Below, one piece after another: positions 1 to 25,766 of a DNA stretch of 27,515 nt. The position numbers were made by a program, and so were the translations under genes. Location of the stretch: positions 1-27,515 of IMG/VR virus record IMGVR_UViG_3300021197_000984; one strand, given 5' to 3'. The stretch is from a virus. Within the stretch, counting starts at the first letter, position 1. The number at the start of each line of letters is the position of its first letter. The notes under the pieces are model-generated. The model was not told the DNA's origin, made no database searches, and was given only the letters and a program-made list of their open reading frames with translations.

Positions 1-790
1 TTTCTGATGACTTGTCCATCTTGGTTCCACCTACATTCTTCATTCCGTAAGCCCAGCTGGCTTCACGAATTTCATAATTGTCATATAGGTCTCGTATTTC
101 GGGACAGTCGTTGTACGACAATACCCAACTGGTTCGTTCGCTGAGGATGTCATACAGGGCTCTGTGATCAAAGCCTGCGTGCGTGTTGCCCCTATCACCA
201 TATAGCTTGTCCTTATCTTCTCCAAGCAGGTATGGTGGGTCGCAGTATAGAAATGCGTCAGGGTGTCTGTTAATTGAAGTCTTAAAGTTTTCACAGCTTA
301 CTGCTAGGTTTGGCTCTCGGAAGTTGTATATCCGGTCAATGGAACTATCAGTGAAGCGTTCATAAGATGCCCGTTTTGACCAGCCTCCAGAGAATGTTGC
401 CCCTGAAAAGCTGCTCCGATTGATTGCGTAGAACTTGGCTGCATTGGTGAAAGAGAAGCGGTCGCCCTCTCTCAGCTCATTCCGAAGACACACAAAATCT
501 TCCTTTAGAAGTCCTCGCTTTCCTTCAAAGTCGGGATGCTCTTTTCGGTAAGAGTCTGCACAGATTGCCAATAAGCGAGGGTCTGCTAATAGGGCGTTCC
601 AGAACCACACAAGGGGTTCAAAGACATCGTAAGCATGGACCGGTATGCCTCTGCCAGCAACGGCAAGCTCCACCGACCCACCCCCAAGGAACGGGGAGCA
701 AAGCTCCTCGCAGTCCTCGGGGATGAGTGGCAGAATGTGCTTTACAGCACGAGATTTACCACCCGGATACCGGAGTGGAGTCTTAGGCAT
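1..790 (-). CDS. dam: DNA adenine methyltransferase (D12/Dam class), 3' end cut by window edge
   Basis: The protein is predicted to transfer a methyl group from S-adenosylmethionine to adenine N6 in DNA. It opens MPKTPLRYPGGKSRAV, the N-terminal motif of D12-class (Dam-like) enzymes. FLGGGSVEL (about residues 34-42) is the SAM-binding motif, NRSSFSG (124-130) is a conserved D12 segment, and the catalytic DPPY lies at 184-187. About 263 residues are visible, close to the full length of T4 Dam, so only a short C-terminus is probably missing. The ATG lies inside the last codons of gp32 (8-base overlap), which suggests translational coupling to it. Phage Dam enzymes usually protect against host restriction or mark DNA for replication or packaging; which applies here is inference. 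Target sequence (possibly GATC) cannot be read from the sequence. Confidence 0.9.
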   Translation of the reverse strand, partial: MPKTPLRYPGGKSRAVKHILPLIPEDCEELCSPFLGGGSVELAVAGRGIPVHAYDVFEPLVWFWNALLADPRLLAICADSYRKEHPDFEGKRGLLKEDFVCLRNELREGDRFSFTNAAKFYAINRSSFSGATFSGGWSKRASYERFTDSSIDRIYNFREPNLAVSCENFKTSINRHPDAFLYCDPPYLLGEDKDKLYGDRGNTHAGFDHRALYDILSERTSWVLSYNDCPEIRDLYDNYEIREASWAYGMKNVGGTKMDKSSE

Positions 791-1538
791 TCATCAACTC
801 GTTGAATGCGCTATCAACTGAATCTCCTTTGTTGGTGTTATACTGTACGGTCTCCGTAGAGTTGCCCTCAGCATTTACACCTCCAGACATAAACTCATCC
901 AGAAGCGCCTGAACTTCGCTTGAGGACTTACGCTCAAACAGTTCCATAATCTCTTGAATTGAGTTTAGGTATGTCGTAGTTGCATCCGCATCCTCAGAGA
1001 GGGGGGACGGACGACGACGGGGCTGCAGCTTGGTCTGCGGGAACGACGCGCCTGGCGGCTTGCCGTAATTCAGAACCAAGTCGGTTCCCTCTTCGGTATC
1101 AGTAATATCTCCATAGTCTGGGTTTAGCACTAGATTGAGCAGACTCTCGTAAGCAGTCTTACCATAGCCCCACCAGCGAACACCGTCAGCCTCCTCACCA
1201 CGGACGAGAACCGGGCTAAAGAAACGCTGTCGTACGAAGAGGCTCTTTGCCATCTTCTTGGAGGACTCATCATTCGTATCTGCACCTTCTCGCCATAGAT
1301 TGGACGCAAAGTCACAAATAGGGCACGAGTCGCCGAAGTTACGCTTAGGGCATAGAATACCACCCTTGCTTACATTATAGTGAAAGAACACCTCCTTGAA
1401 GGGGTCGCCGTCTGCGGTAGGCACCACACGAATAGTCTGGTTGCCGTCGTTCGGGCGCCAAAAGGCTCCCTTAGAAGAGTCCCCATTGTTCTGCACTGCA
1501 GCGAGCTTTGCTCGCATCTTGTCTAGATTGATTCCCAT
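783..1538 (-). CDS. 32: Single-stranded DNA-binding protein, T4 gp32 family
   Basis: This 251-aa protein should coat single-stranded DNA at the replication fork and during recombination. The diagnostic feature is a zinc site of T4 gp32 type: His53, Cys63, Cys72 and Cys75 in the order H-X9-C-X8-C-X2-C, with CPKRNFGDSCPICDF around the last three. T4 gp32 has His64, Cys77, Cys87 and Cys90. The N-terminus (MGINLDKMRAKLAAVQ) fits the basic cooperative-binding segment, and the end (DSVDSAFNELMNA) is acidic, as expected for the tail that contacts other replication proteins. It is shorter than T4 gp32 (301 aa). A good SD (AAAGGA) precedes the ATG. It has its own perfect sigma-70-type promoter and a leader hairpin, and is followed by an overlapping dam gene. 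Confidence 0.93.
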   Translation of the reverse strand: MGINLDKMRAKLAAVQNNGDSSKGAFWRPNDGNQTIRVVPTADGDPFKEVFFHYNVSKGGILCPKRNFGDSCPICDFASNLWREGADTNDESSKKMAKSLFVRQRFFSPVLVRGEEADGVRWWGYGKTAYESLLNLVLNPDYGDITDTEEGTDLVLNYGKPPGASFPQTKLQPRRRPSPLSEDADATTTYLNSIQEIMELFERKSSSEVQALLDEFMSGGVNAEGNSTETVQYNTNKGDSVDSAFNELMNA

Positions 1539-1566
1539 ATTATTTCTTTCCTTTATTGGTTATAGT

Positions 1567-1590
1567 AAATCGGGCAAATCTTCCCGACTT
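1567..1590 (-). promoter_or_regulatory. Hairpin in the gp32 mRNA leader
   Basis: Between the promoter and the gp32 start, the minus-strand RNA can fold AAGUCGGG against CCCGAUUU: eight pairs including one G-U, with an 8-base loop. It sits about 28 bases upstream of the ATG, ahead of the SD. T4 gp32 represses its own translation by binding a structured leader (a pseudoknot plus unstructured sequence), so this is a candidate operator by analogy. I see only weak possibilities for a pseudoknot here. Confidence 0.4.
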
Positions 1591-1599
1591 CTGCCATTG

Positions 1600-1628
1600 A
1601 TTATATCAAATTTAAGGGTAAGTGTCAA
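1600..1628 (-). promoter_or_regulatory. Perfect-consensus sigma-70-type promoter for gp32
   Basis: On the minus strand TTGACA (1623-1628) is followed by a 17-base spacer and TATAAT (1600-1605), a 12/12 match at optimal spacing. It lies in the 93-base gap between the tubulin-like gene and gp32 and points at gp32, giving a leader of roughly 55 bases. A promoter this strong implies expression by the unmodified host RNA polymerase, probably early in infection. Confidence 0.85.
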
Positions 1629-1631
1629 GAA

Positions 1632-2462
1632 CTATTTTTCTTGAATATTTGAGCTGTAGGCTACGCAATAAACATAGTCTTCGTCATACTGAGTAGGGTA
1701 TATCCCATAAGTGGTCTTAGTGTTTTTGGCGTTTTGCTTTACCTGCGCTATGACCTTCTTATGGATTCCCCCCTGCTCTCTCAACTTTTTCTCATTGATA
1801 GCATAATAATATACTTTTTCTCGGACGTTGTCAAGGTCAAAAAACATTTTTTCTTCCCCCGTATCAAAGTCAACGAGCCCATAAGACATTATGCGGCTAA
1901 CATCATGAGGGGGCGAGATATTATCCATTATGCTATCACTATGGGAGAGCACATTGACCATATGCATAGTAGGGACAAGCAACTCATTCAGCTTGTCATA
2001 AAAACCGATTATGGGCAAATCGCCAAGAATTTCCTCTAGACGAGTATTGTCAGCCAAAACGACCTTTTTAAACACCCCAGAGCGGGAATACTCTTGAAAA
2101 ACGTTAAAAGTGACCCTTTGCTGCATCCGAGCTGTCTCACCAAGCAACTCAGGGTCAGAAAAGATGTATAGTATATGAATATTGCATTTTTTTATCTGTT
2201 CTAAAATGCGCAGAGATGCTCCACTAATAGCGCCACATCCAGACACCGCAAATAAGACATCGCCGTCAATATTCTTAAGAAATCTTTTTAGACTACCAAC
2301 GGAGTCTTCATACTCCTCTGGTGTCGGAGCTGTCTTAAGTCCGTAAGTCCGGGGAGTTCTCTTGAGCCCCTGGTCCATCTTGTAAACCTCATATTGAGGA
2401 TATTGAGCAAACCTATCGGCGATGGCGCAACCTGCCTGCCCAAGTCCAATTATTGTTTCCAT
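1632..2462 (-). CDS. Tubulin/FtsZ-like GTPase-fold protein (predicted)
   Basis: I assign this 276-aa protein to the tubulin/FtsZ superfamily from motif order, not from a database match. Residues 4-15 (IIGLGQAGCAIA) fit the first strand and glycine loop (FtsZ GVGGAGGNA). Residues 71-82 (FAVSGCGAISGA) occupy the place of the signature GGGTGTG loop but are degenerate, keeping Gly75, Gly77 and Gly81. Then come a strand, an E-x-x-x-R segment (109-115), VVLADNTRL (134-142) like the FtsZ IPNxxL strand, and YDKLNELLVP (155-164) like the following helix. HDVSRIM (186-192) matches the T7-loop segment with its catalytic Asp (FtsZ FADVxxxM). About 75 residues of C-terminal domain follow. Phage relatives (PhuZ of jumbo phages, TubZ of Bacillus prophages) build filaments that position or segregate DNA. 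It overlaps the polymerase gene by 13 bases and precedes gp32, so a role in DNA organisation is plausible. GTP binding is uncertain given the altered signature loop. Confidence 0.6.
   Translation of the reverse strand: METIIGLGQAGCAIADRFAQYPQYEVYKMDQGLKRTPRTYGLKTAPTPEEYEDSVGSLKRFLKNIDGDVLFAVSGCGAISGASLRILEQIKKCNIHILYIFSDPELLGETARMQQRVTFNVFQEYSRSGVFKKVVLADNTRLEEILGDLPIIGFYDKLNELLVPTMHMVNVLSHSDSIMDNISPPHDVSRIMSYGLVDFDTGEEKMFFDLDNVREKVYYYAINEKKLREQGGIHKKVIAQVKQNAKNTKTTYGIYPTQYDEDYVYCVAYSSNIQEK
1806..1834 (-). promoter_or_regulatory. Possible internal sigma-70-type promoter in the tubulin-like gene
   Basis: TTGACA (1829-1834), 17-base spacer, TATTAT (1806-1811) on the minus strand, 11 of 12 consensus bases. 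It lies within the coding sequence about 270 bases upstream of gp32 and could add to gp32 expression. A chance match is possible, although the same spacing recurs at three other sites in this block. Confidence 0.4.
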
Positions 2463-3640
2463 GATCTCATATCCCCATAGCTCTTGCCATATTGTACATT
2501 AACACCGAACTTTCCTAAAGCAGTATTTGAGAAATGTTCAACTAGAGAGTTGATCATGGATGGCATTTCAACGTTTGTTACGTCTAGTACAACCTCATCA
2601 TGCACGCAGAATGCGACAAATGACTCCTTGCCCTGAAGATACTTGTCCAGCTTGATCATTTGGCGCAGCACAATATCAGAACAAGTGCTCTGAATAAGGT
2701 AGCTCATAGCATGGTGAGCGTCCGCAGGAATAGTTCTACCAAATGGGTTGCTGACGGCGCCGTCATACCAATACTTCTCCATCACGGCACCCTTATCATA
2801 GACGCCCTCGGGCAAACGATCTTGTGATTTAGGATTGTATAGCCAAGCAAAGAACCTTTCTTTAACTTCCTCGCGAGTGCCATCACCTTTATATACATTT
2901 TGCCGGTTCCACTCGTGAACATCAAAATCAGGCTGGTCCATATCAGACAGGGCTAGAAAAGTTCGCAATTCAGCACCGTTAAAATCAAGTGATACGAGCC
3001 AATCATTAGTCGGGGTGACAACTTTTCGGAACTTCTTGTCCATCGTGAGGATTGGAAAGCTGTTTTTCTTAGTCGTAAGGCGCCCAGTCTTTGTTCCAAA
3101 GATGTTATAATCGCACGACAGTGAAATCTGACTTAACTTTTGCGTAAAGTTGCGTGCTCGCTTCTCATGCATAATATCTCGGAGTGCCCAAGGGTCAATC
3201 TGAATCTTGCGGTGCTTTATATCGTGCAAAACTTTCGTCAAATCCACCAAAAAGTCGTAATTTTCGGGTTTCTCGTGGGTTTTCAAGACGTGCTCTGTAA
3301 TCTTATTTCTCATCTCGCAATATTCTCGCAAGAACCGTTCATTTACGAGGTCAAAAAAGCAGTTTTCAGTAAGGTCCACTTTAGCCGCCGTAAAGGCACG
3401 TAGGAACGCCTTCATTCTTCCGTTAATGGTTTCCCACTCCTGAGCGAGATGGACCGGACAGGCGTCTTCTAGAGCCTTCTGGGCGTATAGGAATGCATAC
3501 TCCACATTCGTCCTGTCTCGGAGGAACGCAGAGTAGTTCCAAGTGCGAGTTAGGTCGTCAGGAATGGTGTCAAAGTGCAATTCATTGTTGCAATAGACCC
3601 CGACACACTCTTGTTTGTCGTCAAGTGTTTGAAATATCAT
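2450..3640 (-). CDS. Family A DNA polymerase, polymerase domain only
   Basis: This replicative-type polymerase of the PolA/T7 gp5 family has all three catalytic motifs. Motif A is LDFNGAELR with metal-binding Asp219 and the ribose-excluding Glu224. Motif B starts at Arg256 (REEVKERFFAWLYN), aligning to T7 RDNAKTFIYGFLYG, with Lys260 as general acid and Phe264 where T7 has Tyr526. Motif C is CVHDEV with His347, Asp348 and Glu349. KTGRLTT (184-190) is the primer-template segment that normally precedes motif A. At 396 aa it corresponds to the thumb-palm-fingers part; no 3'-5' exonuclease motifs are visible in the roughly 130-residue N-terminal part. A Phe at the Tyr526 position normally favours dNTP over ddNTP. 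The ATG overlaps the stop of the preceding virion gene by one base (TAATG). T4 itself uses a family B polymerase (gp43), so this is a replacement or a second polymerase. Confidence 0.9.
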   Translation of the reverse strand: MIFQTLDDKQECVGVYCNNELHFDTIPDDLTRTWNYSAFLRDRTNVEYAFLYAQKALEDACPVHLAQEWETINGRMKAFLRAFTAAKVDLTENCFFDLVNERFLREYCEMRNKITEHVLKTHEKPENYDFLVDLTKVLHDIKHRKIQIDPWALRDIMHEKRARNFTQKLSQISLSCDYNIFGTKTGRLTTKKNSFPILTMDKKFRKVVTPTNDWLVSLDFNGAELRTFLALSDMDQPDFDVHEWNRQNVYKGDGTREEVKERFFAWLYNPKSQDRLPEGVYDKGAVMEKYWYDGAVSNPFGRTIPADAHHAMSYLIQSTCSDIVLRQMIKLDKYLQGKESFVAFCVHDEVVLDVTNVEMPSMINSLVEHFSNTALGKFGVNVQYGKSYGDMRSWKQ

Positions 3641-4860
3641 TAATATGTGGGCTGAAAGTCTGTTTTATCGCGGTTGTTACCTTGTGCCAAGGCGGTCTTT
3701 GCGAAAGACCCCTCAAAATTATCAAAACCCTTGAAGGCTCCGTTGATAATTGTGATGATGTAGTTTATGCCAGTGTGCGGCAAAAGCTGTTTACAATTTT
3801 TCTTAAGCTCTACCACTTTGCCGTGACTCCCTGGCTTTCTCTGTTCAATATACCTTAGATCAATGTATTTGTCAAGCCAAAAAGTTGTGGAACCTGCATT
3901 TACAATAGAGTCTACCGTAGCAAATGGTCGGCAAACAATAGTTATTTTAGTCTCCTTACGAACTCTAATATTCCTCTCCTGCTTAACTAATGAGTTATAG
4001 AACTCTAGCGCGAGGCGCTGCAGGTCTAGTAGGTCGTCTCCGCCTACTTTCTGAAAGAAGCGAGAGATGATAAGCTCGCTGCTAGACGCCCCAGAAGCTG
4101 TAGAGTAACGAAGCATCGCAGGGCTACCTACATCCGCAGTCAAGCGCCATGGAACAAACTGGTCAATGCTGAATCCATACTTTTTGGCAGCAGCCAAGAA
4201 ATATGGAAAGTTTGGGCTATTCAAAAACTTCTGCTTATGTGAGTCATCTGATGGGTCCAGGTCGGTGACGTTGATACTCAAGCCAGATATCATAGGGCTA
4301 CATAGGTTGGACGCAACGAATGCTGGTTTAGACACGGAGGAGTTCTCAGCTACAGTGGTCAAGAATTCAAAGAAGGTAGGAAGAAAAGTCTTGAAGTTAA
4401 TTATATCTTGTCTACGCTCTCGTGTCAAGAAAGTACCAAGGAATGCTTTCCTTAAAAGCTCTAGATAATTCAAATACATCACTTTGCTGCTAACGAAGGA
4501 GCTATGACTCTTGACATCAAAAAGATATGGGTCCTCTTGGTTTAGTCTTCCGGCGCGAGCTTGGGCGCTCATCTCCTTTACTAAGTCTTCAAAGGCGTTC
4601 ACCACGAAAGACAGCGCCTGCACTTGGCTTTTTGGATTTGCCCGAGAAGGAATCGCCTTAAGGAAAGCCTCATTGACCGTAATCACGTCATGGTTGTTGT
4701 TTATTCTTCCGTAAAGCATCCTCTCAGCAAACAAGAAGTTTCGCACAGGCTTGACGTATAATGACCCTGCCTCCTGCGGAAAAGCATTGGACGCATAGTT
4801 GGTCCTCTCAAAAAAAGAGTTTATAGAGTTGAGCTTATTATTTCCTTTAAAATTAGTCAT
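3640..4860 (-). CDS. Predicted virion protein of unknown role, 406 aa
   Basis: I do not recognise a domain. It opens MTNFKGNNKLNSINSF and is mixed alpha/beta with no signal peptide or membrane segment. The first half is helical and aromatic-rich. The second half has short strands (KITIVCRPFATVDSIV) and a run INYIITIINGAFKGFDN near residues 365-381. Its ATG follows the stop of the 1264-aa gene with no gap (TAAATG), and its own stop overlaps the polymerase start, so it is translated with both. The position suggests a baseplate or tail protein; that is inference from neighbours. It carries a perfect consensus promoter and a near-perfect one within its coding sequence, both reading toward the polymerase. 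Confidence 0.55.
   Translation of the reverse strand: MTNFKGNNKLNSINSFFERTNYASNAFPQEAGSLYVKPVRNFLFAERMLYGRINNNHDVITVNEAFLKAIPSRANPKSQVQALSFVVNAFEDLVKEMSAQARAGRLNQEDPYLFDVKSHSSFVSSKVMYLNYLELLRKAFLGTFLTRERRQDIINFKTFLPTFFEFLTTVAENSSVSKPAFVASNLCSPMISGLSINVTDLDPSDDSHKQKFLNSPNFPYFLAAAKKYGFSIDQFVPWRLTADVGSPAMLRYSTASGASSSELIISRFFQKVGGDDLLDLQRLALEFYNSLVKQERNIRVRKETKITIVCRPFATVDSIVNAGSTTFWLDKYIDLRYIEQRKPGSHGKVVELKKNCKQLLPHTGINYIITIINGAFKGFDNFEGSFAKTALAQGNNRDKTDFQPTY
3847..3875 (-). promoter_or_regulatory. Probable sigma-70-type promoter upstream of the DNA polymerase
   Basis: TTGACA (3870-3875), 17-base spacer, TATATT (3847-3852) on the minus strand, 11 of 12 consensus bases. It lies inside the 3' end of the 406-aa gene, about 210 bases upstream of the polymerase start, and would let polymerase and tubulin-like genes be expressed separately from the baseplate genes. 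Confidence 0.55.
4400..4428 (-). promoter_or_regulatory. Perfect-consensus sigma-70-type promoter inside a virion gene
   Basis: TTGACA (4423-4428), 17-base spacer, TATAAT (4400-4405) on the minus strand: a 12/12 match at optimal spacing, embedded in codons for LTRERRQDII of the 406-aa protein. It reads toward the polymerase, whose start is about 760 bases downstream. It shares the bases just outside the hexamers (C after TTGACA, GA before TATAAT) with the gp32 promoter. Confidence 0.7.
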
Positions 4861-7800
4861 TTAAAACTCCGTGGTTCCTCGGGGTCTTCCGAATAAAAGA
4901 TCAATGGCACGGGTGGCTTCCGAACATTGATCAGAGTCTGGCTCGCCGACAGAAGAGGGTCCGTTTCCAGCTGAATCATCTGTCTCAACCTCTACAGTTT
5001 CGTTCGGGGAGTTGAAGCCAAGAGCCGCTGGACCACCGACACCTTCAAATATCGCATGTAGTTTAGTCTCAAACTTGCCAGACTCTATGTAAGACTCTAC
5101 ACGGTATATAGTGTGGTAGCCTCCAATGCCTAGCTTAAATGCAGGGTCGCCTCTCTTGGTGGGGCTTCCAATCTCTCCTCCCAAGCCAGCTGGGTCTAGA
5201 TACATCTTCATGCCTGGATAGAAAGCAGTGTTGCCGATCATGTTTACTTTAATGTCATACACATTCGCCAAGATAGACAAACCAGTCGCACTTCCAACCA
5301 AATCTGTCTCAAAACGTGCTTCTCGCAAGCCTTCAAAGTTTGCTTTGGTAAAGTCAACCCTCTTAAGGATGCCTCTGTCTTGTGCGATAGCTAGGTGGTA
5401 AATACCTCTTTCTTCGTCTTCTATCTGGTCGCCGCTTAGATTCTGGGCTGCCTCTGTGGTTATGGCGTACATAAGCATATAGTGGAAGGAGTCGTCCCCG
5501 CGGTCGGGACGAATCAACAGAGGGGCGCCTCCTCGTCTGTTGCGATTTTGATTGAATGCCTCATCTAAATCAATTCGTGTATAGGTGCCCTCACCAGATG
5601 GTCCACAACACTGTTCTCCAGGTAACGTTGGTAACACGTTGAGGTATTCTTCAAGTAGGTCCCTGGGCATTCCGTCGCTTTCCCGACCAGCCTTTCCAGA
5701 AAAGAAGAGTGTTCTCAATTGCAAGTTCTGGCGTGCGATGTTCTGGAAGCTCTGCCCCTGTTCAGACATCACAGAATGTAATAGTTTGCTCGCCAAGTCT
5801 CTTACAAAAGCCAAGAAAGGATAGAATGACTTCTCCTGGCTGAGCGCCTGGTTGATGAACCATTCCACGAAATAGTTTACGGATATAGGTATGTCTGCTA
5901 TATTGATGTTATAAACAATGGAACTATATGAGGTAGGTTGAGGAAGAGCTTCTTGTCCTGCCCGAAGCCTCTCAATCTGCTGCCCTGTTGATGGTATAGG
6001 CTCGTCAGCATTGGATTCTAACTTCTTGAAGCTTATAGGTCCCATGATGAAGCGCATTTGTTTATCCAGCTTGCCCTTCACATCAGTCCCGGGTGGCGCA
6101 TTGTCTAGAGTCTCGGAGATATTGTTCAGCGCTATCTCCATCAAATCGCCGAAATAGAAGAATTGAACAGCCGTCTCACCTGATGAGTCATCGTATGTGA
6201 GCCCAGCAAGTCTCTTAAGGACTGTATCCTCCTCTTGTGCGGCAGTCGGGGCGGACACGCCAATGTGCGCTTCTAAATCCGCCTGACCAGATCGGCTTGC
6301 CAAGTCTAGGTTGTTAATCGCAAGAGGGTCGGATGATCTTCGCAAAAGCCCCTGAATTCCTCTGAAGTTTGTCCTTCCAAAGTTTATGTAACTTTGAAGA
6401 GTGGTTGTATTTACTGGAGCATAGAAAATTCTATCATTCTGATACAACTCTTTCATAATGCGCTGCCAGCTATTATATTTTTCATCTCTAATCTTGAGTT
6501 GATATTCCCGCTTCAGGGCGGCGATATAATCCTCGTTGCAAGTAGAGGCGGCATCTAGCAAGCTCTTTCTACGCAGTAGCCTCGCCGTTAATGCGTTTCT
6601 GTCGGCGAGGACATCGGAATCAGCATCAAAGTAGGAACCCTCTTGCCAAGCGATATACTCTATAGTTAGGTTTACGTTTCCAAACTCGTTAATCTCAATA
6701 TTGTGGTCAATGGCGGTTAGGTACATGGACATTCGTGATGCGTTCACCGCAGATTGTTTAGCGGCTTTCTCTTCGTCAGTCCCAAGAAAAGCTTCAAGAC
6801 CGGGCGGGAACCAACCGCACTCCACCTTAAGCTTGAAGTAGTCTGGATTCCACGCCAAGGCGGTAGTCCTCTCAACGAGTCCTATATTCACCAAATCTAT
6901 ATAACTGAATGGTCGGCTATCACCCCTAATTGTCATAAGCGGCACGCGACGAATAAAGTCCTCCATACTCTGGAAGTATAGCTTAAGCTCTGCGTATATA
7001 TCTCTACGAGCCGTAAAAGGGTTTTGTCCTTCTAGTTTCCAGTCAAAACTGGTAATACCAGCACCGCGCCCGCGCTGAATACCGGGCGTTGTCATATTGC
7101 GTATGCCTTCGGTCCCGGCGTCTATAGTCCTAGGGTCTACGTGTGCCTCAAAGGGAACCTCCTGCTCATAGGTTTCTCCACGTTGTCCATTCTCTTGGAT
7201 ATCGTAGAAGACTTTGTATAGGCGGATCTGAGGAACAAGGGCAGATACCTCAGCGGGTAGGAGCTTCTCTAGGTCTTGCACAGAGCCATTATAAAGTAAC
7301 TTGTTTACAATTGTATCTGTATGTCCGTGGACCATTGTAAAATATCGGCGACCGGAGTTTTTCTCAGCGTAAAGAGGTGTTCTCTCATCTTGATTCAGTT
7401 TAGCGAACTCTGGTAGGTAGTCTATGAGGAATGCCTGCTCTGCTAGGCGCTTAAGTTGTGCGAGCTGCTCAGGCGTGATATCACTATCATCGTCACCTGT
7501 TGCAAGCTGAAGCAGCCTGTCTTCCGCGTAAGCTACAGCCTGGTTGTTGTAGGCTGCTCGCTCCACGCCATCACTTTCCACAATGCCGGGATTATCAGAT
7601 CTTATTGACTGCTCAATTAACTCATTGTCAAGCTTAAGGGCTAGCTCTCTTCCTTTGATCATCGCGTAAAGGGCAAGAAAGTCCTCCAAGTTGAGTCCGG
7701 GGCCACCAAATATATCAAATGTCTCGCCGGTTTGTCGGGGGTATGGTCCAACTTGGGCTGGAGCATCTAAATTAATTGGCTGGGCGTACCGGCGGTTTTG

Positions 7801-23816: not shown

Positions 23817-25766
23817 TTACCAGATTAGGTAGTTGCTGCCGTCAAACATAAGGTTAGCAGCACCATAGGCGGAACCTAGTGAAATACTAGCAGCTCCATC
23901 AATGGTCTCAGAACCTGCAGTCGCGATAGTAACAGCGTTACTGGCGTGACCACCTTGCTTGATGACGAAGACCTTACCAGTAGGCATGCTGCTGGGTAGG
24001 GTCACGGTGACGGCACCACCAGAGGTGTCAACCTTCACGAGGAAGTGACCCTGGGTAAGGGTAGCGTCGGCGCTGATGGAGTGTAGACGACCGGAAAGAC
24101 CGGCAGCCGCATAGAGATCAGCATCAAATTTGAATGCCTGGTCTCCGTGGCTCCAAGTCATGGACTTGTCAGCACCATCAATCTTTAGACCAGCACCATC
24201 AGAAGCTGAAGAGTTGGCAGAGCCACTCGCAACCTGAATGGTTAGGTCCTCAACCTTTAGCTCAGTGGCGCTAACGGTGTCAACACTACCGACAACCTCA
24301 AGGCTACCAGCAATTCTGACGTGGGAAGCGGCGCCACCAATTGTTAGAGTGTTTGCACCGAGGCTAGCAGCGACAGAGGCGTTAGCAGCGGTGAAGTCAA
24401 GACCGGTTAGACCGGAGAAAGCAGTTGCGCTACCACCGAGGGAAACGCTTGTGCTACCAACAGTAAGAGCACTGTTCACAAGCTTGGCGTTCGCGATGGA
24501 ACCGGCGAGCATTGCGTTGGTGATACCAGCAGCCTTGACGCGGACGGCGTCAGAGCTAAGCTCAATGGAGCTGTCATCAACACCAACAGCGAGGACGCCA
24601 CTAGAAGCAGCGAGACCGTTACCAGCGAGACCAGTAGCAACATCGTCGTTCATCATTGCGTCGGTAATACCAGCAGCCTTCACGCGCACGGCGTCAGAGT
24701 CAATCTCAAGAGAGCTATCGTCAACCTTGACGCTAAGCTTACCAGAGGAAGCCTCAATTCCGTCACCGTCAGCGAAAGCTGCGGCGAGATCGGCAATGGA
24801 CTCTTTCTTGGTGCTGTTGTCGGTTGCGTCAATCATGACAAAAGAGTCGGCGGCGCGGTCAACAGCAGCGGCGCTTAGCTCGTTGGCATCAAGAGCTAGA
24901 ACACCTGAAGCGGCAGAAAGACCAACACCAGCGAGACCGGTGGCAACGTCGTCGTTCATCATTGCGTCAGTAACCTTGGTGGCACCGATTGAGGCAACAC
25001 CAGCGGCGAGGGTGACATCACCACTCATTGAGACCCAAGCGAGGTCAGTGCCGTCAGCTTGGAGGAACTGGTGAGCAGAACCAAGAGCTAGAGCTGCGGG
25101 GTCACCAGAAGCGTCACCATAGATGAACTTGCCTCGTGCGAGACCAGCCATCTTGGCTAGGGTAACACCATTGTCCTTGAGACGCACAGTGTCAGAGTTA
25201 ATTTCAATACCAGTGTCGTCAACCTTGACGCTGAGCTTACCGGAGGAAGCCTCAATGCCATCGCCATCGGCGAAAGCAGCAGCTAGATCAGCAATGCTTT
25301 CTTTCTTGGTGCTTCCGTCAGTCGCGTCAATAAGAACGAATGAATCGTTCGCGCGGTCAACGGCAGCGGCACTTAGCTCGTTGGCGTCAAGAGCAAGAAC
25401 GCCAGAGGCAGCGGAAAGACCGTTGCCAGCAGCGGCAGCCATAAGGTCAGCGATGCTTTCCTTCTTGGAACCGTTGTCTGTAGCGTCAATTAAGGCAATG
25501 CTATCGTTCGCGACGTCAACAGCAGCTGCGCTTAGCTCGTTGAGGTCAAGAGCAACAGAGACGGCAGCACCGAGGTCAACCTCGCCACCACCTGAAAGAC
25601 CGTTACCAGCGGTAACTGTAACGGAGTCGTTAACCAACTTAGCGTTGGCAATAGAGCCAGCGAGGTCTGCGTTGTCAACAGAGCCTGCTGCGAGATCAAT
25701 ATCACCAGCGGAGATATCAAGAGTACCGGCAGTCTTCATCGTACCGATAATTGTTTTATAAGCCAT
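23817..25766 (-). CDS. Repeat-containing phage fibre protein, 649 aa
   Basis: A long, thin appendage, probably trimeric, for host contact or head decoration. It has an N-terminal segment (1-50, with DNADLAGSIANAKLVNDSVT), a repeat region (about 55-430) and a C-terminal tip (about 565-649). The repeat unit of about 86 residues runs NGLSAASGVLALDANELSAA, then ND-x-FVLIDATD, KKESIADL, DGDGIEASSGKLSVKVDD, and SDxVR. Two nearly full copies (115-200 and 281-366) and partial ones (55-113, 382-416) are present, with a GITDAMMNDDVATGLAG spacer (twice). The region KVEDLTIQVASGSANSSASD (504-523) is a fold seen in many marine phage fibres. The tip (FLVKVDTSGGAVTVTLPSSM, then IKQGG and SETIDG) matches the 141-aa protein. 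Composition is Ala/Asp/Ser-rich and nearly Cys-free. Tail versus head fibre cannot be decided. Confidence 0.75.
   Translation of the reverse strand: MAYKTIIGTMKTAGTLDISAGDIDLAAGSVDNADLAGSIANAKLVNDSVTVTAGNGLSGGGEVDLGAAVSVALDLNELSAAAVDVANDSIALIDATDNGSKKESIADLMAAAAGNGLSAASGVLALDANELSAAAVDRANDSFVLIDATDGSTKKESIADLAAAFADGDGIEASSGKLSVKVDDTGIEINSDTVRLKDNGVTLAKMAGLARGKFIYGDASGDPAALALGSAHQFLQADGTDLAWVSMSGDVTLAAGVASIGATKVTDAMMNDDVATGLAGVGLSAASGVLALDANELSAAAVDRAADSFVMIDATDNSTKKESIADLAAAFADGDGIEASSGKLSVKVDDSSLEIDSDAVRVKAAGITDAMMNDDVATGLAGNGLAASSGVLAVGVDDSSIELSSDAVRVKAAGITNAMLAGSIANAKLVNSALTVGSTSVSLGGSATAFSGLTGLDFTAANASVAASLGANTLTIGGAASHVRIAGSLEVVGSVDTVSATELKVEDLTIQVASGSANSSASDGAGLKIDGADKSMTWSHGDQAFKFDADLYAAAGLSGRLHSISADATLTQGHFLVKVDTSGGAVTVTLPSSMPTGKVFVIKQGGHASNAVTIATAGSETIDGAASISLGSAYGAANLMFDGSNYLIW
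24519..24623 (-). repeat. Partial fibre repeat, copy 4
   Basis: Codes for residues about 382-416 of the 649-aa fibre (NGLAASSGVLAVGVDDSS, then SDAVRVKAAGIT), a shortened unit lacking the DATD/KKESIADL half. Confidence 0.6.
24669..24926 (-). repeat. Fibre protein repeat, copy 3
   Basis: Codes for residues 281-366 of the 649-aa fibre (about 258 bases). It matches the copy at 25167-25424, about 500 bases away, almost residue for residue, with many silent differences. Confidence 0.75.
25167..25424 (-). repeat. Fibre protein repeat, copy 2
   Basis: Codes for residues 115-200 of the 649-aa fibre. A shorter related copy at 25428-25604 (residues 55-113) shares LNELSAAAVD, NDSIALIDATD and KKESIADL. 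Confidence 0.75.

Follow-up and report, generated by a model that had tools for sequence, protein, structure and literature searches.

Introduction

Among the described systems closest to the protein reported here are PhuZ and the phiKZ TubZ of Chimalliviridae jumbo phages, in which a tubulin fold is encoded by the phage. Tubulin homologs detected with profile HMMs are reported in PMC11835377 as a distinguishing trait of the nucleus-forming Chimalliviridae among large phages, with a handful found elsewhere, and the tubulins of marine jumbo phages are linked to a phiKZ-like group in PMC9123017. As to function, PMC4244570 describes the PhuZ D190A variant as catalytically inactive, GTP still being needed for polymerisation, and the extended C-terminus of PhuZ as required for its three-stranded filament. 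The same fold is found in the TubZ proteins of plasmids and plasmid-like prophages (TubZRC systems) and in FtsZ and CetZ.

The protein studied here is encoded in a 27.5-kb virus record (27,515 nucleotides), the whole of which is called the window below. It is a known fold in a new family, in a new setting and with altered chemistry. Its likeness to PhuZ includes two loops in addition to the fold: the T4 loop GGSGxIS of some family members resembles PhuZ GGSGSVL, and HD187V of the window protein stands at T7 where PhuZ has HD190V. However, the window protein is 39 aa shorter than the PhuZ of phage 201phi2-1 and has no comparable C-terminal tail, the sequence match between the two is not significant, the gene sits between polA and gp32, and the contigs of the lineage measure 147–204 kb, compared with genomes of 280–317 kb. 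The position between polA and gp32 also sets the gene apart from TubZRC. No TubR-like neighbour was seen (the adjacent polA, gp32 and 406-aa ORF had no HTH family matches; ORFs of at least 60 aa), and no centromere-like iterons were seen within positions 600–5200.

The tubulin-fold gene and its neighbours

The genes of the locus were as follows:

3640..4860, minus strand: conserved neighbour of 406 aa with a weak VanY/LdcB-like (M15 peptidase) fold match, context only
2450..3640, minus strand: family A DNA polymerase (polA), 396 aa (PF00476, E 7.6e-15; phrog_17, 4e-16)
1632..2462, minus strand: tubulin-fold protein, 276-aa ORF with an ATG start
783..1538, minus strand: gp32-like single-strand DNA-binding protein (PF08804, 2e-17; phrog_1192, 4e-26)

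An ORF at 1632–2462 had been pointed out, with no strand given, in a preliminary description of the window. The ORF is real and its gene lies on the minus strand, the plus strand being interrupted by several stops across the same positions. The overlap with the DNA polymerase gene and the place of gp32 as the next gene, both claimed in that description, were also found: 13 nt (2450–2462) are shared with the upstream polA ORF, and the gene that follows is the PF08804 match. At least 583 of the 600 pattern-matched stretches listed encode relatives, and within the close clade the tubulin-fold gene had a dN/dS of about 0.06, estimated from the 23 usable pairs among 36, with dS close to saturation; polA and gp32 gave similar values. 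The ORF is therefore a constrained gene and not a chance reading frame.

The surroundings had been called those of a T4-type phage. The virion genes of the window agree with this, including the major head protein (phrog_138, 2.8e-69), sheath (phrog_23, 1.9e-68), tube (phrog_4542, 1.8e-19), baseplate hub (phrog_150, 7.2e-18) and a baseplate wedge protein (phrog_7145, 3.2e-10). The polymerase does not, as it belongs to family A, unlike the T4 enzyme, which is of family B. Positions D219, R256, K260, H347 and D348 of the polymerase were invariant among 30 sequences and are, we presume from the family A motifs, the catalytic ones. No exonuclease domain was recognised in its 396 aa.

Fold prediction and structure searches

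A first scan of viral contigs yielded 32 relatives, 28 of which were aligned with the window protein (alignment A1, 29 sequences); L025, with a stop inside the frame, and L017, L018 and L019, identical to L016 over the matched part, were left out. AlphaFold2 run on A1 gave a mean pLDDT of 94.4 and a pTM of 0.92, with all five models at 93 or above. The predicted chain consists of a GTPase-type Rossmann domain, a central H7 and a C-terminal alpha/beta domain, which over its whole length are features of the tubulin/FtsZ superfamily.

Foldseek returned 597 PDB matches at E ≤ 0.001, and the 50 listed were FtsZ, TubZ or tubulin (best E 2.1e-12). With VIA-align, Z was at least 8 for all 724 chains compared, and the best 50 of the 724 were titled FtsZ, TubZ, CetZ or tubulin/microtubule. 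The top match among those listed was CetZ 3zid_B (Z 24.6, rmsd 2.9, 254 residues, model range 1..276), followed in the same list by TubZ 2xka_F (Z 23.4, 270 residues) and FtsZ 2r6r (Z 22.5, 265 residues). A PhuZ entry was absent among the 50 VIA matches listed, which is not evidence of absence. The best viral structural match was A0A6J5RW92 in BFVD, named "FtsZ Cell division GTPase" and originating from an uncultured Caudovirales phage (E 4.3e-13, TMq 0.80); it has 452 aa compared with 276 and is 14% identical.

The last strand of the model ends at residue 270 of 276 and the chain stops six residues later, leaving no H8, C-terminal helix or tail in the model, and the relatives reach at most 14 residues past the end of the window protein (152 proteins). 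The C-terminal linker and conserved C-terminal peptide of FtsZ are likewise missing from the window protein, which, as modelled, is a reduced tubulin. The tubulin/FtsZ fold had been proposed from motif order, and structure prediction had been suggested as a check; the fold was recovered over the whole chain, with a tubulin core and no other fold among the matches listed. Both this predicted fold and the link to the polymerase in the genome are regarded as secure.

Sequence searches

The Pfam profile PF00091 (Tubulin) scored the window protein at 14.9 bits (E 0.032), below the curated cut-off of 33 bits, and the best E among the 29 members was 0.0055. In six-frame searches with the same profile, phiKZ reached 31.8 bits (2.6e-8) and 201phi2-1 27.8 bits (4.4e-7). 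Both of these tubulins also fall under the Pfam cut-off, so missing it does not by itself set the family apart. Nine large contigs of the lineage gave no PF00091 match at E ≤ 0.001, and one of them showed its own tubulin-fold gene at 0.0085. Comparison of the family by hhalign was not significant with either a 39-sequence FtsZ set (E 0.23) or PhuZ (E 0.26), whereas a single PhuZ sequence reached E 0.0011 against the same FtsZ profile. The FtsZ set came from one bacterial phylum and included two genomes twice. No tubulin was found by phmmer and hmmsearch among PDB chains, and PHROGs held no informative family for the protein. Homology thus rests on the predicted fold and not on sequence statistics. 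A forced global hhalign alignment placed N170, across gaps, opposite the T7 Asn of FtsZ; this assignment was rejected, N170 lying inside H7 in the model.

Searches for the family outside the lineage were negative within their scope. Three members matched none of 50,697 phage records in tblastn. A search of Immutovirus, Mel-JY01, RM378, LR756508 and 201phi2-1 with the family profile gave no match; that search lacked a positive control, and on known contigs the profile succeeded in 14 of 14 cases. Among bacterial and archaeal genome contigs, none of 225 pattern matches was a confirmed relative, and an E. coli FtsZ query found nothing in viral contigs (exact peptide patterns only). In Immutovirus, two short genes lie between polA and a single-strand DNA-binding gene, and neither is tubulin-like by eye. 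No cultured representative was found among the phage records and the genomes named above, and no publication pointing to the family was found among the open-access papers searched.

Conservation of the neighbourhood

The neighbourhood was compared across 96 distinct tubulin-gene DNAs, which were derived from 109 loci and the window. polA lay directly upstream in 72 of the 96 loci, with an overlap of 13 or 4 nt in 46 of these 72 adjacent pairs, and gp32 lay downstream in 89. Where polA was not adjacent (24 loci), it was present further upstream in 14, mostly past a small gene, and was not seen in 10; nine of these 10 have less than 0.9 kb of upstream contig, and the tenth (L090) has about 1.9 kb with no recognised polA. 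Five of the seven loci with no nearby gp32 are on contigs that end within 0.4 kb, one (L029) has gp32 further on, and in one (L031) about 6 kb after the tubulin-fold gene contained no recognised gp32.

A second set was selected by the polymerase only, not conditioned on the tubulin gene, and comprised the best 80 of 579 confirmed stretches, so that more distant polymerases are outside the sample. The tubulin-fold gene was found downstream of polA on the same strand in 79 of the 80 loci (within 60 nt in 55), and the contig of the single exception ends 466 bp after polA. gp32 followed in 75 of the 79, the other four contigs ending within 0.3 kb. Of the 79 proteins from this set, 18 were already among the 94 of the first protein set and 58 were distinct and new, which gave 152 proteins; L025 was left out of the 94, and identical proteins were dropped from both sets.

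One copy of the gene per record was present in 14 of 14 records tested, including five contigs of 161–191 kb, and the largest contig of the lineage seen was 204 kb. The tubulin-fold gene is a core gene of a T4-like phage lineage with a family A replicase, not a single oddity.

Promoter-like sites

Two sigma-70 promoter-like sites precede genes of the locus:

3847..3875, minus strand: TTGACA-17-TATATT (11/12), within the 3′-terminal part of the 406-aa ORF and some 210 nt upstream of polA
1600..1628, minus strand: perfect site TTGACA-17-TATAAT, upstream of gp32

Of 75 loci, 35 had a site scoring at least 11/12 within the 350 nt preceding polA, and of 69 loci, 42 had one before gp32; in shuffled sequences the rates were 0.5% and 0.6%, respectively. 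As controls, the bodies of polA contained such sites in 0 of 79 cases, and a score of 11 was reached in 7 of 95 tubulin bodies, compared with 0.8% of shuffles, so the scores are not perfectly specific. Because sigma-70-like sites are conserved before polA, this gene and the tubulin-fold gene are probably transcribed together by the host RNA polymerase. The window has two further sites, both within coding sequence on the minus strand: a perfect one (12/12) at 4400–4428 in the 406-aa ORF and one of 11/12 at 1806–1834 in the tubulin-fold gene.

The predicted nucleotide pocket and the T7 region

The following elements of the tubulin-fold protein were located:

2418..2453, minus strand: T1 glycine loop, residues 4–15 (IIGLGQAGCAIA); G8 and G11 in 152/152
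2217..2252, minus strand: T4 loop, residues 71–82 (FAVSGCGAISGA), non-canonical signature; GGG[TS]G[TS]G in 0/152
2079..2096, minus strand: residues 123–128, C-terminal end of H5 (QEYSRS in the window); Q123 and R127 in 152/152, S128 in 151/152
2046..2048, minus strand: N139, in 144/152; alpha-tubulin N206 by position, at the S6/H6 junction (DSSP)
1986..1988, minus strand: N159, in 145/152; alpha-tubulin N228, near the start of H7
1893..1943, minus strand: T7 region, residues 174–190, including D187 in HDV; H8 not predicted

The four motifs of the preliminary description, IIGLGQAGCAIA (4–15), FAVSGCGAISGA (71–82), VVLADNTRL (134–142) and HDVSRIM (186–192), are all present. G8, G11, L84, Q123 and R127 were invariant in the 152 distinct proteins. 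N139 and N159 looked invariant in the first 94 proteins, and the addition of 58 more reduced them to the counts given above.

In alpha-tubulin, N206, Y224 and N228 take part in guanine binding. By motif order and secondary structure (DN, then Y-x-x-L-N in H7) they correspond to N139, Y155 and N159 of the window protein, the alpha-tubulin numbering having been verified on PDB chains. Position 155 was less conserved (Y in 100, H in 21 and F in 18 of 152). The T1 glycine loop and the guanine-contact Asn of T6 and of H7, all superfamily features, are thus present in the window protein.

The two motifs associated with hydrolysis differ from those of FtsZ. Both the T4 signature GGG[TS]G[TS]G and the T7 motif NxDxx[DE] were found in 39 of 39 FtsZ control sequences, compared with none of the 94 and none of the 152 proteins here. 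The signature loop had been reported as degenerate in the window, and this proved to be a property of the whole family. NxDxx[DE] is a strict motif, since PhuZ itself has LDVHD at T7. Of the 152 proteins, 91, the window protein included, have an acid at position 187, a further 36 have one only at 184, and the other 25 have none at these two positions; residue 187 varied (D, Q, S, E) between relatives more than 80% identical. As these acids vary even among near relatives, canonical hydrolysis is not a conserved property of the family, and canonical GTP-driven dynamics are doubtful because none of the 152 proteins has either the signature or the T7 motif. GTP hydrolysis looks weakened or dispensable, judged from these residues. 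Earlier doubt about the use of GTP was well placed in so far as the T7 motif is missing throughout; it is tempered by the guanine-contact Asn, which are mostly kept, the first being lost in 8 of 152.

Correlated loss of pocket residues

Seven of the eight proteins that lack N139 also lack N159. At position 77 in the T4 loop, E or D is found in each of these eight proteins and in 2 of the 144 others; at position 10 in T1, Ala is replaced in each of the eight and in 14 of the 144. The co-occurrence of these changes supports a single nucleotide pocket built from residues 10, 77, 139 and 159, as the fold predicts. When the loss was mapped on a quick maximum-likelihood tree, five changes were counted, at least three of them forced by well-supported branches; the tree has long branches and its details are unsure. 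Nucleotide binding is probably not universal in the family, because the first pocket Asn is missing from eight members and both from seven.

Q123, R127 and S128 were kept in all eight proteins lacking N139. Judged from this pattern, a member can apparently dispense with nucleotide binding and still retain a further conserved surface. The invariant Q123 and R127 fit a conserved contact face; the topology of the fold would place the end of H5 on the T7 side, where one protofilament subunit contacts the next.

Over 68 loci, pairwise distances of the tubulin-fold protein correlated with those of polA at r 0.906, a value reached in none of 999 permutations; the correlation with the distances of gp32 was 0.762. 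Such correlation is expected of linked genes and so indicates vertical inheritance, and is not proof of contact.

Proposed role and alternatives

The gene, its predicted fold, its neighbourhood, its conservation and the loss of motifs are shown above; the transcription unit, nucleotide binding, assembly and role, including the positioning of DNA suggested in the preliminary description, are inferred. The tubulin-fold protein probably helps to organise or assist viral DNA replication. In the reading we favour, with a probability of about one half, it is a nucleotide-binding and probably head-to-tail assembling tubulin that is made with the replicase and acts on replicating DNA, hydrolysis being reduced or optional. 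A host-type (sigma-70) promoter would provide for its synthesis together with the DNA polymerase, often from overlapping frames. In most members, including that of the window, a guanine nucleotide would probably be bound in the T1-T4-T6-H7 pocket, the subunits would associate head to tail so that the T7 face of a neighbour contacts the bound nucleotide, and such assemblies would, within the infected cell, hold or position both the replicase and the replicating DNA with its gp32 coat. The loss of the canonical T7 and T4 motifs, and in some members of the entire pocket, makes slow or optional hydrolysis probable.

The chief rival also places the protein at the replisome and dispenses with filaments: the tubulin fold would serve the 396-aa polymerase as a scaffold or accessory subunit and might be a pseudo-GTPase. 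Such a role would suit a gene found beside polA in 79 of 80 polA-selected loci and overlapping it in 46 of 72 pairs, a pocket lost recurrently while Q123, R127 and S128 stay, the absence of the canonical T7 and T4 motifs, and a chain with no long C-terminal extension past the fold. However, the guanine-contact Asn and the glycine loop kept in most members are hard to explain for a pure scaffold, and adjacency alone is no proof of physical contact; this explanation is possible, if rather unlikely. A spindle like that of the nucleus-forming jumbo phages, in which a dynamic GTP-hydrolysing filament centres phage DNA or delivers capsids, is improbable. The fold class is the same, and HD187V, with an acid at 187 in 91 of 152 proteins, recalls PhuZ HD190V, whose Asp is needed for hydrolysis; that acid is, however, replaced even between near relatives, the sequence relation is not significant, and no PhuZ-like tail exists (at most 14 residues past the end of the window protein among 152). 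In addition, a chimallin query from 201phi2-1 matched none of nine contigs of 147–204 kb, which may be incomplete and in which a distant chimallin would escape the search, while phiKZ as the positive control was matched at E 5e-138.

The protein could also act on the host by capping or poisoning FtsZ, blocking division during infection. It has its fold in common with FtsZ and ends where the fold ends, lacking an FtsZ-type C-terminal tail, which in FtsZ serves membrane-anchor partners. This possibility appears quite improbable given that the gene stands beside polA in the same 79 of 80 loci and not among host-takeover genes, that no significant sequence resemblance to FtsZ was detected, and that the phage FtsZ inhibitors known to us are small unrelated peptides. 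Finally, the chain might have another nucleotide-binding Rossmann fold, the sequence profiles being below significance and the fold a prediction; with all five models at pLDDT 93 or above, 724 of 724 chains at Z ≥ 8 with the best rows covering residues 1–276, and pocket residues that co-vary as a tubulin fold predicts, an error of this kind is highly improbable.

Beside the favoured reading of an assembling, nucleotide-binding tubulin, we tentatively suggest, at less than even odds, that the replicase has an obligate tubulin-fold partner that was recruited into the replication machinery, with GTP control mostly kept and lost several times independently. If true, this would be a tubulin serving as a scaffold of the replisome or replication compartment, not as a spindle, and hidden from sequence searches in a widespread T4-like group. 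The Pfam tubulin profile barely detects this family, yet its gene is a core one in a broad group near or below the jumbo size limit, which suggests that cytoskeletal-fold proteins in phage replication may be commoner than sequence annotation shows. Natural members with and without the nucleotide pocket offer a chance to ask what GTP does in a viral tubulin.

Other genes of the window and the lineage

The 396-aa polymerase is unusually short for family A and is poorly matched by phage records (13 records; 24–32% identity in the 10 matches listed). The 406-aa neighbour had no family matches; its AlphaFold2 model (pLDDT 87.1) best matched M15 peptidases of the LdcB/VanY/VanX type, weakly (Z 8.0), and the protein could be a peptidoglycan peptidase associated with the tail, or an inactive relative of such an enzyme. 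After gp32, the window encodes a DNA adenine methyltransferase (2–790, minus strand; PF02086, 1.7e-28), which was recognised in 9 of 96 loci, many loci ending before that place. Near the head genes, a 649-aa protein (23817–25766, minus strand) has internal NELSAAAVD / IDATD repeats and had no PHROG match at E 0.01.

Small additional genes were observed within the conserved block. In L056, L057, L071, L073 and L091, and also in L094, L095, L102 and L029, a small gene whose product starts with KLVRDx(I/V)P lies between polA and the tubulin-fold gene; we take it to be a MazG-like nucleotide pyrophosphohydrolase. One subgroup (L052, L062, L064, L068, L070, L080 and others) has a small gene, encoding about 90 aa, that separates the tubulin-fold gene from gp32; its product, with an N-terminal hydrophobic stretch, is possibly a membrane protein. 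In L084, polA is split from the tubulin-fold gene, in an otherwise tight operon, by a Cys-rich ORF of more than 600 aa with DNDCDG-type repeats and a MIDAS-like DWSGSM.
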